In this document: piece by piece, positions 13,837 through 44,904 of the stretch
Layout of the letters: every line of letters begins with the position of its first letter
Position numbering within the stretch: position 1 is the stretch's first letter
DNA from: Ornithinicoccus hortensis
GTDB taxonomy: Bacteria > Actinomycetota > Actinomycetes > Actinomycetales > Dermatophilaceae
Direction of reading: 5' to 3'
Assembly (NCBI RefSeq): GCF_006716185.1
Contig: NZ_VFOP01000001.1
Coordinates: 2,356,001 to 2,420,000 of the forward strand
DNA length: 64,000 bases
Program-made: the position numbers and the translations under genes
Notes under the pieces: generated by a model
The model's input: only the letters and a program-made list of their open reading frames with translations
The model's database searches: none
Told to the model about the DNA's origin: nothing

Positions 13837-14544
13837 ATGACAACCATTGACGCGGTGTTTCCCGAGCCCGTGGTGGACGGGTCGGGCTCGCGCACCCTGG
13901 ACCGGGGGCTGCGACTCCTCTCGCTCGTGTGCGCGTCCCCGGTCCCGTTGTCCGTCGCCGAGATCGCGACCGCCAGCGGGTTGCACCGCTCGATCTGCTA
14001 CCGCCTGGTGCGCACCCTGGCGCACCACGACCTGCTGGAACGGGACCCCGACGGCAGGTACGGGGCGGGCGGGGGACTGGCCGTGCTCGCCGGCCGGCTC
14101 GAGCCCCGGCTCCAGGCGGCCGCGCGCCCGCACCTGGAACGGCTCGCCGAGCAGACCGGGATGACCGCCTTCGTGGTGGCCGCCCACGGCGAGGACGCCG
14201 TGACGGTCCTGGTCCTGGAGCCGCAGACCGGCCTGGCGCACGTCTCCTACCGCCCCGGCGGGCGGCACCGTCTGGAGGTCGGCGCTCCCGGTCTGGCGAT
14301 CCTCGCCGGACGACCCGAGGCCGCGGGGGAGCGCCCCGAGGTCACCAGGGCCCGCACCCGCGGGTGGGCCACCTCCGTGGGAGAGGTGATCCCGGGCTAC
14401 CACGCCGTGGCAGCCCCGGTCGTCGAGGCCGACGGCCAGTGCCGGCACGCCGTCGCCGTCGTCTACGCGGGCGAGGGCGACCCCGCCCGCCTCGGTCCCG
14501 CACTCGTCGACACCGCCCGCCGCATCGCCGCCGACCTCGCCTGA
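13837..14544 (+). CDS. IclR-family transcriptional regulator
   Basis: A 235-residue IclR-type regulator. The N-terminal winged helix (about 20-80; LSVAEIATASGLHRSICYRLVRTL) is followed by the IclR effector domain (about 90-235; VVAAHGEDAVTVL, RHRLEVGAPGLAILAG, GYHAVAAPVV). IclR proteins commonly control catabolic and uptake operons in response to an aromatic or short-chain acid. Divergent placement from the Liv/hydroxylase operon suggests that it senses the imported compound. AAGGTGG about ten bases upstream supports the start. The stop codon TGA runs directly into the first 33-bp repeat unit. Confidence 0.9.
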   Translation: MTTIDAVFPEPVVDGSGSRTLDRGLRLLSLVCASPVPLSVAEIATASGLHRSICYRLVRTLAHHDLLERDPDGRYGAGGGLAVLAGRLEPRLQAAARPHLERLAEQTGMTAFVVAAHGEDAVTVLVLEPQTGLAHVSYRPGGRHRLEVGAPGLAILAGRPEAAGERPEVTRARTRGWATSVGEVIPGYHAVAAPVVEADGQCRHAVAVVYAGEGDPARLGPALVDTARRIAADLA

Positions 14545-14630
14545 CCGGACGCGTCACCTGGCGGCTGCCAGGGGGCACCGGACGCGTGAGGTGGCGGTCT
14601 CCAGGGGCACCGGACGCGCGACCGGGCGGT
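14544..14630 (+). repeat. 33-bp repeat array 1, three units, downstream of iclR
   Basis: Units start at 14544, 14577 and 14609 (spacing 33 and 32). Each opens with ACCGGACGCG and continues to a GGCGGT/C element; the third is more diverged. The first A of unit 1 is the last base of the iclR stop codon. Unit 1 holds a perfect six-base-pair hairpin (CCTGGC at 14557-14562, GCCAGG at 14567-14572). The remaining bases up to the endonuclease stop at 14653 show nothing else. Confidence 0.85.
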
Positions 14631-14652: not shown

Positions 14653-15804
14653 TCAGAGATCAAAGGTCACGGTCACTGCGGCGTGGTCGGAGGCCTGGTG
14701 GATGCTCGCGGTCATCTCCGGGTAGGTCTCCCACGCGGTGGGCCGCGTCTTGCGCTGCCCCCACAGTCCGGCGCGGTGCACGGTCCCGGAGCGGAATGCC
14801 TGGGCGAGGGTGGTGGAGTACAGCAAGTAGTCGAGCCGGTTTCGGATCCCGCACGAGTCGAACGTCCCCGGTCGTGGCCCCACGTCGAACTCCGCGTGGT
14901 CGTAGCACGAGCGCAACGGTCCGTCGGGATCGAACAGCGGCGCCAGGTTCTCGGCCGGCGTCTGCTCATCGGGCTGCCCCTCGTTGAGGTCACCGAGCAC
15001 GATGACCCGCTCTCCGGCATACACGAGCTCGTCGACGATCGCCCGCACCGCCGCGGCCTGCCGCCGACGGGTCGACCCGCCGCCGCCGGACTGGCTCTTG
15101 AAGTGGTTGACGGCGATGTGGATGGCACCGCCCGGCGTGATGACCCGGTAGACGGGGCAGTCGCGGCTGAACACCTGACCGCTGGGGTCGACCAGGTCCA
15201 CGTGCGAGCGGATGGTGCGGATCTCGAAGCCGGGCTTGGTCATGATCCCCACGTCGATGCCGCGGGGGTCGTTGCCGTCGACGAGCATGACGTGCCGGTA
15301 CATGCCCGAGAGGAACTCGCGGTTGAAGCGCTGGAGGGAAGGCCGGTCCTCTGCCTCGACGATCGCGAGGATGTCCGCGTCGATGTCCTGGATCACCTTG
15401 GCCGTCATCGCGATGCCGGTCTCGTCGGTGACCGCGGTCGCGAGCTCCACCCAGCCGATCCAGTCGCCCCGACCCGTGGCGACGATCTCGACGTCCTGGG
15501 TCGGGTCGGCGGGCTCGCGGTCGAAGCTCCCGCGATTCTTCCGCAGCCACGCCCAGGGCGGGTCGGCGCTGAACCGCCGCCGCACCGCCCCGTGGGTGTT
15601 GCGGTAGTAGATCCCCAGCACCAGGAGCAGCTCCGTCAGGCGCGCTCGGTCGGCCTCGTCATACACGGTCTTCGCGCTGAGGTCGGTGAACTCGCTGTAT
15701 GCCGCGAGCACCGGTTCTCCGACCGTCCAGTCAGCGGTGTCGAACGCCTTGGGTCGGGCGAACAGGTTCTCCACGTTGAAGGTTCCGACCGTGACGGTAC
15801 CCAT
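14653..15804 (-). CDS. endonuclease/exonuclease/phosphatase-family protein
   Basis: A 383-residue protein with the EEP (DNase I-like) fold. The N-terminal strand is TFNVENLF, the metal-binding Glu is in AIVEAED, the catalytic His region is AVNHFKSQ, the Asp-x-Asn is in VLGDLNE, and the C-terminal SDH is in QASDHAAV. All key residues appear intact, so a Mg-dependent phosphodiesterase or nuclease is likely; the substrate is unknown. No secretion signal is seen, so it is probably cytoplasmic. The open frame continues upstream to 16137 through the repeat array, but homology starts at MGTVTVGTFN, so 15804 is chosen. It is flanked on both sides by 33-bp repeat arrays in inverted orientation. Confidence 0.85.
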   Translation of the reverse strand: MGTVTVGTFNVENLFARPKAFDTADWTVGEPVLAAYSEFTDLSAKTVYDEADRARLTELLLVLGIYYRNTHGAVRRRFSADPPWAWLRKNRGSFDREPADPTQDVEIVATGRGDWIGWVELATAVTDETGIAMTAKVIQDIDADILAIVEAEDRPSLQRFNREFLSGMYRHVMLVDGNDPRGIDVGIMTKPGFEIRTIRSHVDLVDPSGQVFSRDCPVYRVITPGGAIHIAVNHFKSQSGGGGSTRRRQAAAVRAIVDELVYAGERVIVLGDLNEGQPDEQTPAENLAPLFDPDGPLRSCYDHAEFDVGPRPGTFDSCGIRNRLDYLLYSTTLAQAFRSGTVHRAGLWGQRKTRPTAWETYPEMTASIHQASDHAAVTVTFDL

Positions 15805-15861
15805 GGGTCCATCATGCCCACCGCGGGCCCGGGGCGACAGGGCCCGCGGCAGGCTTCTTGG

Positions 15862-16046
15862 CGCCAGGTGACGCGTCCGGTGCCCCCTGGGGACCGCCCG
15901 ACGACGCGTCCGGTGCCGCCTGGGGACCGCCCGACGAGGCGTCCGGTGCCCTTCTCCTGCCGCCAGACGACGCGTCCGGTGCCCCCTGGGAACCGCCCGA
16001 CGAGGCGTCCGGTGGGGGTGTGGGGCCGCCAGATGAGACGTCCGGT
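15862..16046 (-). repeat. 33-bp repeat array 2, six units, downstream of gltD
   Basis: Plus-strand unit starts are 15862, 15895, 15928, 15961, 15994 and 16027, exactly 33 bp apart; the last is only the 20-bp core. In minus-strand (gltD) orientation the core reads ACCGGACGCGTCRTCKGGCG, with some units differing. The gltD-proximal unit shares its first A with the gltD stop TGA. The 33-bp period equals 11 codons, and the plus-strand frame from 15858 is open throughout. Confidence 0.88.
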
Positions 16047-17506
16047 CAGATGGCGATGGGCTGGTCGCTGGGGCGGACTGGGAAGGGCAGGGAGGTGCGG
16101 CCGGTGAGGTACTCGTCCACGGCGGCGGCGCAGGCACGGCCCTCCGCGATCGCCCAGACGATCAGCGACTGGCCGCGACCGGCGTCACCGGTGACGAAGA
16201 GCCCGTCGTGGGCGGTCGCATACCGCTCGTCGCGGGCGAAGGTGCCGCGCGCCGTGCGCTCCAGCTCGACCTCGCCGGCGACCTCCGGCTCCGGGCCGGT
16301 GAAGCCCAGGGCCACCAGCACCAGCTGGGCGGGCAGGTCCCGCTCGGTCCCGGCATACGGGTCGAACCTGCGGTCGATGCGCTCGCCGTCCACCACCCGC
16401 ACCCCGCTCACGTTGCCGTGCCCGTCGTCGTGCAGCTCCAGGGTGTTCACCCCGAAGACGCGCTCGCCGCCCTCCTCGTGGGAGTCCCCGACCCGGTGGA
16501 TCAGCGGGTACATCGGCCACGGGTGGTGCTCCGGGCGCTCCGACGGCGGTTGCGGGCGGATGTCCAGCTGGGTCACGCTGCGGGCACCCTGCCGGATCGC
16601 GGTCCCGTAGCAGTCGGCACCGGTGTCGCCACCGCCGATGATCACGACGTCGAGACCCTCCGCGCTGGGGCCGCGCGGGGCCCCGAGCGCCTCGCGGTTG
16701 GCGGGGACGAGGTACTCCATCGCGGGCATGACGCCGGCCAGGTGTTCGCCGGGGGTGCCTACCGGGCGGGGGACGGTGGAGCCGGTGGCGAGCACGACCG
16801 CGTCGAACCGCTCCTGCAGGTCGGTCAGGGACATGTCGTCCGGTCCGTCCCCGCCGACGGTGACCCCGGTCTTGAACCGGATCCCCTCGCCGCGCAGCTG
16901 CACCAGGCGCCGGTCCAGCACCGACTTCTCCATCTTGAACTCGGGTATGCCGTAGCGCAGCAGACCTCCGACCGCGTCGTCGCGCTCGTAGACCACGACC
17001 GTGTGGCCGGCGCGGCCCAGCTGCTGGGCGGTCGCGAGCCCGGCGGGACCGGAGCCGACCACGGCCACCGTCTTCCCGCTGAGCCAGTCCGGCTCCTCGG
17101 GGGTGACCAGGCCGTTGTCGAAGGCCCGGTCCACGATCGAGACCTCGACCTGCTTGATGGTCACCGGCGGCTGGCTGATCCCGAGCACGCACGCGGTCTC
17201 GCAGGGCGCCGGACAGAGCCGCCCGGTGAACTCCGGGAAGTTGTTGGTGGCGTGCAACCGCTCGATGGCCTCGCGGAAGTTGCCGCGCCGGGTGAGGTCG
17301 TTCCACTCGGGGATCAGGTTGCCCAGCGGGCAGCCCTGGTGGCAGAACGGGATGCCGCAGTCCATGCACCGGGAGGCCTGGCCGCGCAGCACCCGGTCCT
17401 CCTGGGCGGTGTGCACCTCGTGCCAGTCCTGGATCCGGATCGGGACCGGGCGGGACGGCTGCTCGGCGCGGTCGCGGTGCTTCAGGAAGCCTTTGGGGTC
17501 AGCCAC
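16046..17506 (-). CDS. gltD: glutamate synthase small subunit
   Basis: The FAD/iron-sulfur subunit of NADPH glutamate synthase. It oxidises NADPH and passes electrons to GltB. The 486 residues include N-terminal cysteine clusters ([17 protein letters not shown] and [10 protein letters not shown]) for [4Fe-4S] centres, the FAD-binding [18 protein letters not shown] and a second NADPH-binding [11 protein letters not shown]. The start is GTG 17506, overlapping the gltB stop by eight bases, so the two are translationally coupled. A 33-bp repeat array begins at its stop codon. Confidence 0.95.
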
Positions 17507-42534: not shown

Positions 42535-42711
42535 CTGGCACTCCTCACTGAAGAACTCGGGCGATGAGCGGCGGAATGCCGGGCCCGTCTGGATTCTCCC
42601 CCGACTCTAGTGCGCGGGCCCGACCCACGCAGCACCCCCCGGGCGGGTACCATCGAGACGCAACCTCCGGCATACCGGCCGGCATCCACCCGACCATCGC
42701 GAAGGGACACT

Positions 42712-43671
42712 GTGACCACCTTGGACCGCCGCCCTCCTACAGCCGGGGCGTCCGCGCCAGAGCGAGGGTGGCAGCAGGTGGTCGGCGACTACGTGTCGTT
42801 GACCAAGCCGAGGATCATCGAGCTGCTCCTGGTCACGACCTTCCCGGTGATGTTCCTGGCCGAGCGTGGCGTCCCGTCGATCTGGCTGATCCTGGCGACC
42901 CTCGTGGGCGGCTCGCTGTCGGCGGGCTCGGCGAACACCCTGAACTGCTACCTGGACCGCGACATCGACGCGCGGATGCACCGCACCGAGAACCGACCGC
43001 TGGTGACCGGCGCGATCAGTCCCCGCAACGCGATGATCTTCGGGGTCGTCCTCGGGGTGGCGTCGGTGGTCTGGCTCGGCGTGCTGGTCAACTGGCTGTC
43101 CGCCTGGCTGGGGCTCGCCGCGATCGTGCTCTATGTCGGCTTCTACACCCTGCTGCTAAAGCGCCGGACGAGCCAGAACATCGTCTGGGGTGGTGTCGCC
43201 GGCTGCATGCCGGTGCTGATCGGCTGGTCCGCGGTGACCAACAGCCTCGACTGGCCCGCGCTGGTGCTCTTCCTGGTCGTCTTCTTCTGGACGCCGCCGC
43301 ACTACTGGCCGCTGTCGATGCGGTTCAAGGAGGACTACGCCAACGCCGGCGTCCCGATGCTGCCGGTCGTCGCCGAGGACATCGCGGTGGGGCGCCAGGT
43401 CGTGGTCTATTCCTGGGTGACCGTGCTGGTCTCGCTAGCCCTCGTCCCGGTCGCCGACATGGGGTGGATCTACACCGTCACGGCGGTCGTCGCCGGCGCG
43501 GTCTTCCTGGTCGAGGCCCACGGCCTGTTGAGCCGGGCGCGTCACGGCGTCACCGGCACCGGCCTCCGGGCGATGCGGCTGTTCCACTACTCGATCAGCT
43601 ACCTGACCCTGTTGTTCCTGGGCGTGGCCGTCGACCCCCTGCTCCACTGGGCCCTCCCCATCTCCTTCTGA
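42712..43671 (+). CDS. ctaB: protohaem IX farnesyltransferase (haem O synthase)
   Basis: A membrane UbiA-family prenyltransferase that adds a farnesyl chain to haem B to make haem O for cytochrome oxidase. The 319-residue protein has about eight or nine membrane helices and both aspartate motifs: [20 protein letters not shown] and the [12 protein letters not shown] segment. GTG 42712 follows GAAGGGA; TACCAT near 42650 may belong to its promoter. Its stop is followed within ten bases by a 33-bp repeat array. Confidence 0.95.
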
Positions 43672-43681
43672 CCCCCTCTCG

Positions 43682-43842
43682 ACCGGACGCGCGACCTGGC
43701 GGTTTTCACCCCCGACCGGACGCGTGACCGGTCGGCTTTCACTCCCGACCGGACGCGTGACCGGTCGGCTTTCACCCCATCCAGACGTGTGATCGGGCGG
43801 CTTCACCCGCGACCGAGCGCGCGACCGGGCGGTCTCCGTCTC
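43682..43842 (+). repeat. 33-bp repeat array 3a, five units, downstream of ctaB
   Basis: Unit starts are 43682, 43715, 43748, 43780 and 43812 (spacing 33, 33, 32, 32). Units 2 and 3 form perfect eight-base-pair hairpins (CCGACCGG at 43712-43719 with CCGGTCGG at 43728-43735; repeated at 43745-43768), each followed by CTTTC. This resembles tandem intrinsic terminators. Units 4 and 5 are more diverged. Bases 43843-43892 between this and the facing array hold no recognisable feature. Confidence 0.85.
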
Positions 43843-43892
43843 GGGCGCGGCGACGGGACCGACCGATGGCGGGCTCGGTCAGGGGTCAGGAT

Positions 43893-44024
43893 CGCCCGAC
43901 GAGCCGTCCGGTGGGCACTGGCGACCGCCAGGTGAGACGTCTGGTGGGGGTTGGAGGCCGCCAGGTGAGGCGTCTGGTGGGGGTTGGAGGCCGCCAGGTC
44001 ACGCGTCTGGTCGGGGGTTGGGGG
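43893..44024 (-). repeat. 33-bp repeat array 3b, four units, downstream of ctaA
   Basis: Plus-strand unit starts are 43893, 43926, 43959 and 43992, exactly 33 bp apart. They are oriented along the minus strand and face array 3a. The ctaA-proximal unit overlaps the gene: the ctaA stop codon (43999-44001) is the TGA inside ACGCGTGACC, so the last few residues of CtaA are encoded by repeat sequence. With array 3a it fills the 327-bp space between the two cta genes. Confidence 0.85.
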
Positions 44025-44904
44025 TGGCGTGCTCGTTGAGGGTGAGGATGCCGAGGGTGACGGTGAGGGTCAGGAGGGCGGCGCCGAGCATGTGGACGAG
44101 GACGAGGAACTCGGGGAGGCCAGCGAGGTACTGGGTGTAGCCGATCAGGCCCTGGGCCAGCGAGATCAGCATGACGTAGCCCCAGATCTCCCGGGACCGG
44201 CGCGCGTCGGGGACCAGGGTGGTGGCCACGAGCATCGCGAGCACCAGGCCGATGAAGAGCATCACGGAGTCGGCGTGCAGCCAGGAGATGGTCCGCGGGT
44301 CGAAGCCGAACCGGGCCGGGTCGTTCGCGTCACCGGAGTGCGGCCCGGAGCCGGTGACGACCGTCCCGAGGACCAGCACGGCGACCAGGACCAGGGCGGT
44401 GAGCCAGCCGAGGCGCTGCACGATGACCGGGACGAGGCTGCGGGGCGGCCCGTCGGGTTGGCGCTCGCGCCACACCAGGGCGGTGCTGATCGCGACCAGG
44501 CCCATCGAGATCAGGAAGTGCGCCATGACCGTGGTCGGGTGCAGACCGGTGCGCACCGTGATGCCGCCGAGCACTCCCTGCAGGACGGTGAATCCGATGA
44601 TCAGGCCGGCGAGCAGCGGCAGGCCCCGGCGGTGCCGAGCCCAGCGCCAGACCCCCACGACCGCGGCAAGGGCGGCGAAACCCACCAGGATGCTCAGCAT
44701 CCGGTTGCCGAACTCGATGTAGGGGTGGTAGCTGGCCGAGTCCTCCAGGACCGGGGTGTAGGAGCCGGGGTGGCACTCCGGCCACGTGGGACAACCCAGG
44801 CCGCTCCCGGTGAGCCGGACCAGGCCGCCGGTGACCACGATGAGCACTTGGAGGACCAGGTTGGCGAGCAGGATCCGGCGCAGCCAGGGGGAGGTGGGGG
44901 TCAC
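43999..44904 (-). CDS. ctaA: haem A synthase
   Basis: Oxidises the C8 methyl of haem O to the formyl group of haem A. The 301-residue membrane protein has about eight helices and the N-terminal TGSGLGCPTWPEC, whose two cysteines match the CtaA extracytoplasmic disulfide pair. Haem-ligand histidines include those in GLHPTTVMAHFL, SWLHAD and VLVHMLGA. The C-terminal NPRPDA and stop codon come from a 33-bp repeat unit, suggesting that an insertion re-set the end of the gene. Convergent with ctaB. Confidence 0.94.
   Translation of the reverse strand: MTPTSPWLRRILLANLVLQVLIVVTGGLVRLTGSGLGCPTWPECHPGSYTPVLEDSASYHPYIEFGNRMLSILVGFAALAAVVGVWRWARHRRGLPLLAGLIIGFTVLQGVLGGITVRTGLHPTTVMAHFLISMGLVAISTALVWRERQPDGPPRSLVPVIVQRLGWLTALVLVAVLVLGTVVTGSGPHSGDANDPARFGFDPRTISWLHADSVMLFIGLVLAMLVATTLVPDARRSREIWGYVMLISLAQGLIGYTQYLAGLPEFLVLVHMLGAALLTLTVTLGILTLNEHATPNPRPDA

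Follow-up and report, generated by a model that had tools for sequence, protein, structure and literature searches.

REP sequences are short, high-copy extragenic repeats that lie mainly downstream of coding regions, between unidirectional or convergent genes, and their ends often provide a stop codon, as set out in one study (PMC3733652). The tandem arrays described here are likewise extragenic, mostly downstream of genes and in contact with stop codons, making REP/BIME sequences and the RAYT proteins linked to them the closest described kind. However, REPs are palindromes with a GTAG or CGTC terminus, whereas the units of the arrays do not fold and are joined head to tail with a constant step. 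The link to RAYTs is also a point of difference and was rejected for the arrays, as a search for the Y1-type transposase (PF01797) returned nothing from 31 genomes of the genus, some of them incomplete, while a control search found it in 5 of 14 named genomes.

Mycobacterial interspersed repetitive units (MIRUs) are tandem intergenic repeats that lie near stop codons and vary in unit number. Compared by features, the arrays resemble MIRUs and bacterial VNTRs in being tandem, intergenic, close to stops and variable in unit number, but their unit is shorter, combines a constrained core with a loose spacer and recurs every two or three helical turns. A CRISPR array was also considered and rejected, given that there are 59 dispersed arrays of 2-6 units whose 12-bp spacers are similar within an array, whereas CRISPR repeats are confined to one or a few loci and alternate with unique spacers.

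Two further comparisons concern what such rows of sites might do. It is an established idea that a DNA-bound protein can stop RNA polymerase by acting as a roadblock (PMC10310618). The arrays are proposed here to work alike, through a putative bound protein, and the literature searched on roadblocks yielded no natural arrays of such kind at gene ends. The ends of Tn7- and Mu-type transposons, for their part, each carry a series of ~22-bp binding sites, the two series standing in opposite orientation. Of the 59 arrays in the genome from which our sequence comes (G000), 38 stand in convergent pairs within 3.5 kb and 21 are without such a neighbour; in contrast to transposon ends, no transposase is present among 10 bracketed proteins scanned, and two array sites persist at orthologous places. 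Neither the literature searched, in which few subscription journals were included, nor a search of the window (the whole stretch of 64,000 nucleotides analysed) against Rfam, which gave no match, provided a description of these repeats, in agreement with the first-pass annotation, which had not recognised them as a described family.

Arrays at gene ends in the window and genome-wide

The window contains four arrays that, on re-counting, comprise the 18 units initially claimed (3, 6, 5 and 4), with boundaries slightly different from those first given and, as also claimed, a unit step of 33 bp, rarely 32. Array A (14544..14629, forward strand; three units, steps 33 and 32) follows a gene for an IclR-type regulator (13837..14544, forward; Pfam PF09339 and PF01614) and has the final A of its TGA in common with unit 1. 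Array B (15861..16046, reverse strand; six units, step 33) follows a gene for a GltD-type oxidoreductase (16046..17506, reverse; Pfam Fer4_20 and Pyr_redox_2, the GltD name being that of the first-pass annotation), and here too the A of the stop is common to unit 1. These two arrays face inward and enclose a gene of the endonuclease/exonuclease/phosphatase family (14653..15804, reverse). Array C (43682..43832, forward; five units, steps 33, 33, 32 and 32) begins 10 bp after the stop of ctaB, which encodes a UbiA-family prenyltransferase (42610..43671, forward; Pfam). Opposed to it is array D (43892..44011, reverse; four units, step 33), which follows a COX15-CtaA family gene (43999..44904, reverse; Pfam), contains the ctaA stop within unit 1 and has a very weak fifth unit at ~43859-43879 (weight-matrix score 10.1).

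All of these stop contacts are as originally described, and the observation of four stop-anchored arrays in the window is confirmed as real. That every unit reads in the direction of its upstream gene is also true, but is informative for the gltD array only: the iclR, ctaB and ctaA arrays lie in convergent gaps, where the statement would hold whichever way the array pointed, and array B is the only one in the window to occupy a gap between tandem genes.

The genome G000 consists of one contig (C1) of 3,935,242 bases. With up to three mismatches allowed, the core pattern matched this sequence 132 times (72+60), compared with 2 times (0+2) for the reversed pattern, placing the repeats of the window far above chance. 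A 33-position sequence model built from 87 units gave 189 matches at E <= 1, and 37 stretches were taken around matches, 150 of the 189 being listed, together with three control stretches; arrays composed of weak units only and lying outside the 150 listed matches may thus escape the census. Applied to the fetched stretches, a weight matrix returned 67 groups with 226 units, while the best that a 60-kb control stretch offered were single matches scoring 15.1 and 11.9. When an array was required to have at least two units, at least one of them scoring 20 or more (a score chosen after the data had been seen), 59 arrays were retained with 218 units in total, 2-6 per array, and with steps of 33 bp in 147 cases, 32 in 11 and 31 in one. 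The arrays are unevenly spread, as the interval 0.94-2.28 Mb of the contig holds 4 of 40 array clusters where 13.6 would be expected (binomial 0.0005), an interval picked post hoc.

Placement was assessed against genes called with a home-made, unvalidated codon-usage script, in regions most of which had been chosen for holding arrays. Under a looser rule that admits 68 arrays in G000, and with each gap coded first by the gene end behind the array and second by the gene end ahead of it, 22 arrays fall into class 3/3, 18 into 3/5, 13 into 5/3 and 6 into 5/5, with one at an edge and 8 inside called ORFs; these last are mostly weak two-unit calls, although 704350+ and 257062- are good weight-matrix arrays. 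In G000, 28 of 59 arrays begin within 25 bp past a same-strand stop, compared with 16.2 expected from random placement and orientation within the same gaps (5000 simulations, p <0.0001, uncorrected; the 25-bp cut-off was set after the data had been seen). The excess is retained when tandem gaps alone are considered (13 of 31 arrays, 4.8 expected), and is found in the congeners G006 (20 of 27, 9.5 expected) and G004 (7 of 13, 2.3 expected), while not being significant in the small samples from G010 (6 of 11, 4.3 expected) and G012 (4 of 8, 4.3 expected).

Orientation follows a similar pattern. Across five species, stop-proximal arrays in tandem gaps point with the gene in 28 cases and against it in 7 (0:2 in G012 alone); with no condition on distance, the tandem gaps of G000 divide 18:13, indicating that the orientation bias exists only near stops. 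In G006, 21 of 27 arrays have a same-strand gene behind them, and in 16 of these the first core lies 13-16 bp past the stop. The stops preceding arrays in this species are enriched in TAA (9 of 19 versus 10 of 173; Fisher p 6e-6, uncorrected), as they are in G000 (4 of 30 versus 12 of 329; p 0.036, uncorrected), with few cases available in G004 (0 of 6), G010 (1 of 7) and G012 (0 of 1). Copies throughout the genome therefore do favour stop codons and the orientation of the upstream gene, so that the preference proposed for the window holds beyond it and exceeds random expectation in G000, G006 and G004. However, 19 of 59 intergenic arrays in G000 have no same-strand gene end behind them (13 reversed, 6 between divergent genes), and the stop-codon preference is a tendency, not a rule.

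Unit anatomy and a putative protein site

The conserved part of the unit in G000 is a bipartite site of ~21 bp, ACC-NN-ACG-N8-G-N-CGG. Conservation was compared over 49 arrays with 138 full units, the per-position figures being drawn from first full units. When the first full unit of each array is set against those of the others, core positions 1-3, 6-8, 17 and 19-21 are identical in 92-100% of cases, positions 9-12, 14 and 16 in 36-57%, and the remaining core positions in 81-88%. When all units are taken together, cores agree at 78% between arrays and 84% within them, while the corresponding values for spacers are 47%, with 43% expected from composition, and 62%. The last spacer letters (30-32) are kept at 77-81% in first units, so the spacer sequence is not entirely free. 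Most spacer letters nonetheless vary while the length of the step hardly does, which indicates that length is constrained and most of the spacer sequence is not. Conservation, judged by eye, ignores codon positions, and the idea that each 33-bp unit is a run of 11 codons was therefore rejected; a half-site repeated within the core, with a lag of 11-12, was also set aside, the signal being a weak bump (0.38 versus 0.31 expected in G000, 0.33 versus 0.27 in G006).

The step itself takes few values. In fetched stretches of nine genomes, some of them selected by a pattern that left steps above 40 bp outside, neighbouring cores of this first family (family 1) are separated by 22 bp in 44 cases (G004 and G012), by 32 bp in 37 and by 33 bp in 95, with one case (29 bp) between 22 and 32, these step sizes representing few independent families. 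Steps of 22 and 32-33 bp equal two or three turns of B-DNA, and in a second repeat family, considered below, 34 of the 45 steps no longer than 120 bp are of 32 bp.

The repeat system is real and looks functional. A conserved core combined with fixed spacing is the pattern expected of a bipartite protein site that needs set spacing, and, judging from sequence, each unit may be such a site. Our preferred reading, a tentative one that we hold to be plausible rather than probable, is that the arrays are oriented rows of putative protein sites that lie preferentially at transcription-unit 3' ends and act there as a boundary. A putative DNA-binding protein would occupy each ~21-bp site, and spacing the sites by 32-33 bp, or by 22 bp in some congeners, would put the copies on one face of the helix, an arrangement in which whole-turn spacing would make cooperative binding possible. 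We infer that an occupied row might then slow or block RNA polymerase past the stop codon and so separate neighbouring transcription units, while the number of copies would rise and fall locally by whole units.

Array pairs, orthologous sites and competing explanations

A mobile element and a neutral minisatellite are serious rivals of the protein-site reading. The first, which we regard as rather unlikely, supposes a miniature non-autonomous element bounded on both sides by inward-facing rows of transposase sites, single arrays then representing solo ends or decayed ones. The arrangement of neighbouring arrays speaks for this explanation: within 3.5 kb in G000, 19 of 19 neighbours are convergent, 12 of them less than 700 bp apart, with none divergent and none on the same strand, and 11.3 kb separate the closest two divergent arrays. 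Independent terminators would also yield same-strand and divergent neighbours and would not give this excess, while convergent gene ends account for some of the convergent array pairs. An opposite partner within 700 bp is present for 22 arrays, 15 of which sit in tandem gaps where there is one gene end only. The sharp left end of the G006 arrays past the stop and the over-representation of TAA also speak for an element. The convergent excess, the chief unexplained fact, is compatible with an element of inverted pairs, with a mobile ancestor and with arrays that bridge to each other. In G012, where exact cores only were read by eye, about five pairs within 3.5 kb are convergent, one is same-strand and none is divergent; in G006 (L179), one divergent pair ~3 kb apart was read by eye, so that convergence is not absolute in the genus.

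Other array pairs in G000 enclose genes, and the 10 products scanned from the 13 called bracketed genes match a hydrolase, a mycothiol transferase, an exonuclease, a phosphodiesterase, an amidohydrolase, a glyoxalase and others, with no transposase among them; transposon cargo was rejected on the ordinary character of these proteins. A mobile origin is also opposed by the 21 of 59 arrays that lack any convergent neighbour at up to 3.5 kb, and by a between-array spacer likeness of 47%, which is unlike that of copies of one recent element.

Orthologous sites bear on both rivals. Two arrays of G012 were traced through G028, G029, G030 and G017, with stray core-like matches excluded at the first site. 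This site holds 6 units in G012, 4 in G028, 3 in G029, 2 in G030 and ~5 in G017, and the second holds 7 in G012, 6 in G028, 5 in G017, 3 in G029 and 1 clear unit in G030. These two arrays thus stay in place and change by whole units, down to a single copy but never from present to absent across the five species, which counts against a mobile element and leaves the insertion at stop codons that had been proposed from the window unsupported. Their retention in five congeners also speaks for the protein-site reading. Changes of this kind are, on the other hand, what would be expected of neutral minisatellites, anciently dispersed, driven by slippage and tolerated only in gaps just past stops, an explanation that we consider unlikely and with which the mostly intergenic location also agrees. 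Neutrality is difficult to reconcile with anchor letters near 100% beside six core positions at 36-57%, with a step that stays constant in length although most of the spacer sequence changes, or with a stop preference and orientation that exceed random placement in the same gaps.

At the RNA level, no consensus pairs were predicted over 87 units of G000, and single arrays fold no better than their shuffles on average (mean sense z in five species of -0.65, 0.02, -0.81, 0.18 and -0.56), which points to action at the DNA level. Array C alone reaches a z of -2.4, the antisense strand of the G010 arrays a mean of -1.28 (n=11), and arrays C and D together, if transcribed as a pair, form a long hairpin (z -11, sense) that results from their inverted arrangement. 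A strict scan for terminator-like GC-rich hairpins followed by a T tract recovered them at 0 of 177 unit-end genes in the G000 stretches and 1 of 100 in those of G006; for array-bearing unit-end genes the figures are 0 of 32 and 1 of 20, respectively. So near-total a lack of terminators makes the contrast between array-bearing and array-free genes uninformative, and makes some other termination device plausible. A Rho site was rejected as well because composition is not alike in the two families, the sense strand being only slightly C-rich in family 1 (C 0.40, G 0.34) and the second family G- and T-rich. An RNA element, whether 3'-UTR hairpin, terminator or stabiliser, is improbable despite the location past stop codons, the C and D hairpin and the G010 antisense value, as the units have no consensus fold, single arrays are no more stable than shuffles on average, hairpins with T tracts are almost absent, the composition speaks against a Rho site and the window has no Rfam match.

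Of the 3'-end element first suggested, a terminator or RNA-stability device, the RNA hairpin is unsupported for single arrays, whereas a terminator or boundary acting on DNA remains the best reading. With scanned stretches of two genomes nearly devoid of canonical terminators, arrays of putative protein sites would offer a concrete DNA handle on how transcription ends in high-GC bacteria. A speculative and improbable extension of this reading would be a genus-specific boundary system in which helically phased rows, paired face to face, enclose either a gap or from one to a few genes, over some 0.1-3.4 kb. A rapidly evolving protein would link the two facing rows and so close a small insulated loop, comparable to those at convergent CTCF sites in animal chromosomes. 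The same function might then be served in different congeners by different site 'dialects', with steps of 22, 32 or 33 bp and two families of sequence.

Distribution among relatives and a second repeat family

A sequence model fitted to G000 (R1) gave 108 matches in that genome and 0-2 weak ones in each of 96 relatives, a near-absence that reflects too specific a model, since variants were found with a two-core pattern. This looser form of family 1, two ACCGRRCGCG cores 18-40 bp apart, was applied to 186 genomes of the family. It has 12-138 matches in 12 of the 31 genomes of the genus and 0-4 in the remaining 19, so family 1 is dispensable, some of the 19 carrying family 2 or shortened arrays. 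The 155 genomes of other genera have 0-2 matches each, many of those listed being one recurrent, coding-looking site. Among 396 genomes drawn from the order, none but G000 has more than 4 matches, although isolated tandem runs are present locally, and the step is 33 bp in one of them (G329). An exact-core scan of public contigs, whose coverage possibly excludes near genomes, identified 7 contigs from unrelated taxa with one match each.

Within the genus, family 1 has steps of 22, 32 and 33 bp. In G006, G010 and G023, the ctaB site is occupied by another repeat, whose core is of the GGTTTCGT or GGTTTTGT type and whose step is ~32 bp. The short core of this second family, GGTTTYGTMSG, has 52-121 matches in G006, G010, G014, G018 and G023 and 0-16 in the other 26 genomes of the genus, while tandem pairs of it are present in 6 of 184 family genomes, all from the same genus. 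Among the genomes searched, both families occur in quantity in one genus only. In a CtaB tree of 29 genus genomes (without G003 and G005), which represents a single gene, the presence of family 1 is scattered and the five genomes rich in family 2 are grouped. Tandem pairs of family 1 number 4 in G030 and 1 in G021, compared with 66-125 in G012, G028 and G029 and 78 in G017. Clade-specific families with a patchy distribution are consistent with a mobile element, and the patchiness, in which genomes closely related to rich ones have so few tandem pairs, is also consistent with minisatellites. For the protein-site reading, the shifts of step and sequence among congeners would constitute a natural series for the co-evolution of a protein and its site.

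Several minor observations accompany these repeats. Although its tandem pairs number only 4, G030, a close relative of G012, G028 and G029, contains 46 single GCACCGGACGCG cores, compared with 6 for a control, and its arrays seem to be shortened genome-wide. Several 22-bp arrays of G004 (L272, L273, L275, L276, L277, L196 and L200) are followed by words resembling the DnaA box, the consensus of which is TTATCCACA; the words are exact in L272, L276 and L277 and near variants in the others, and some are inverted about the centre of convergent arrays. Other intergenic tandem repeats were found in gaps of various types in G006, with periods of 23, 44 and 48 bp (L168:2163-2311, L176:9387-9521 and L179:6394-6511). 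In G002, a palindromic-looking 44-bp unit unlike either family is repeated 6.6 times at L194:13952-14244, beginning 5 bp past a called stop.
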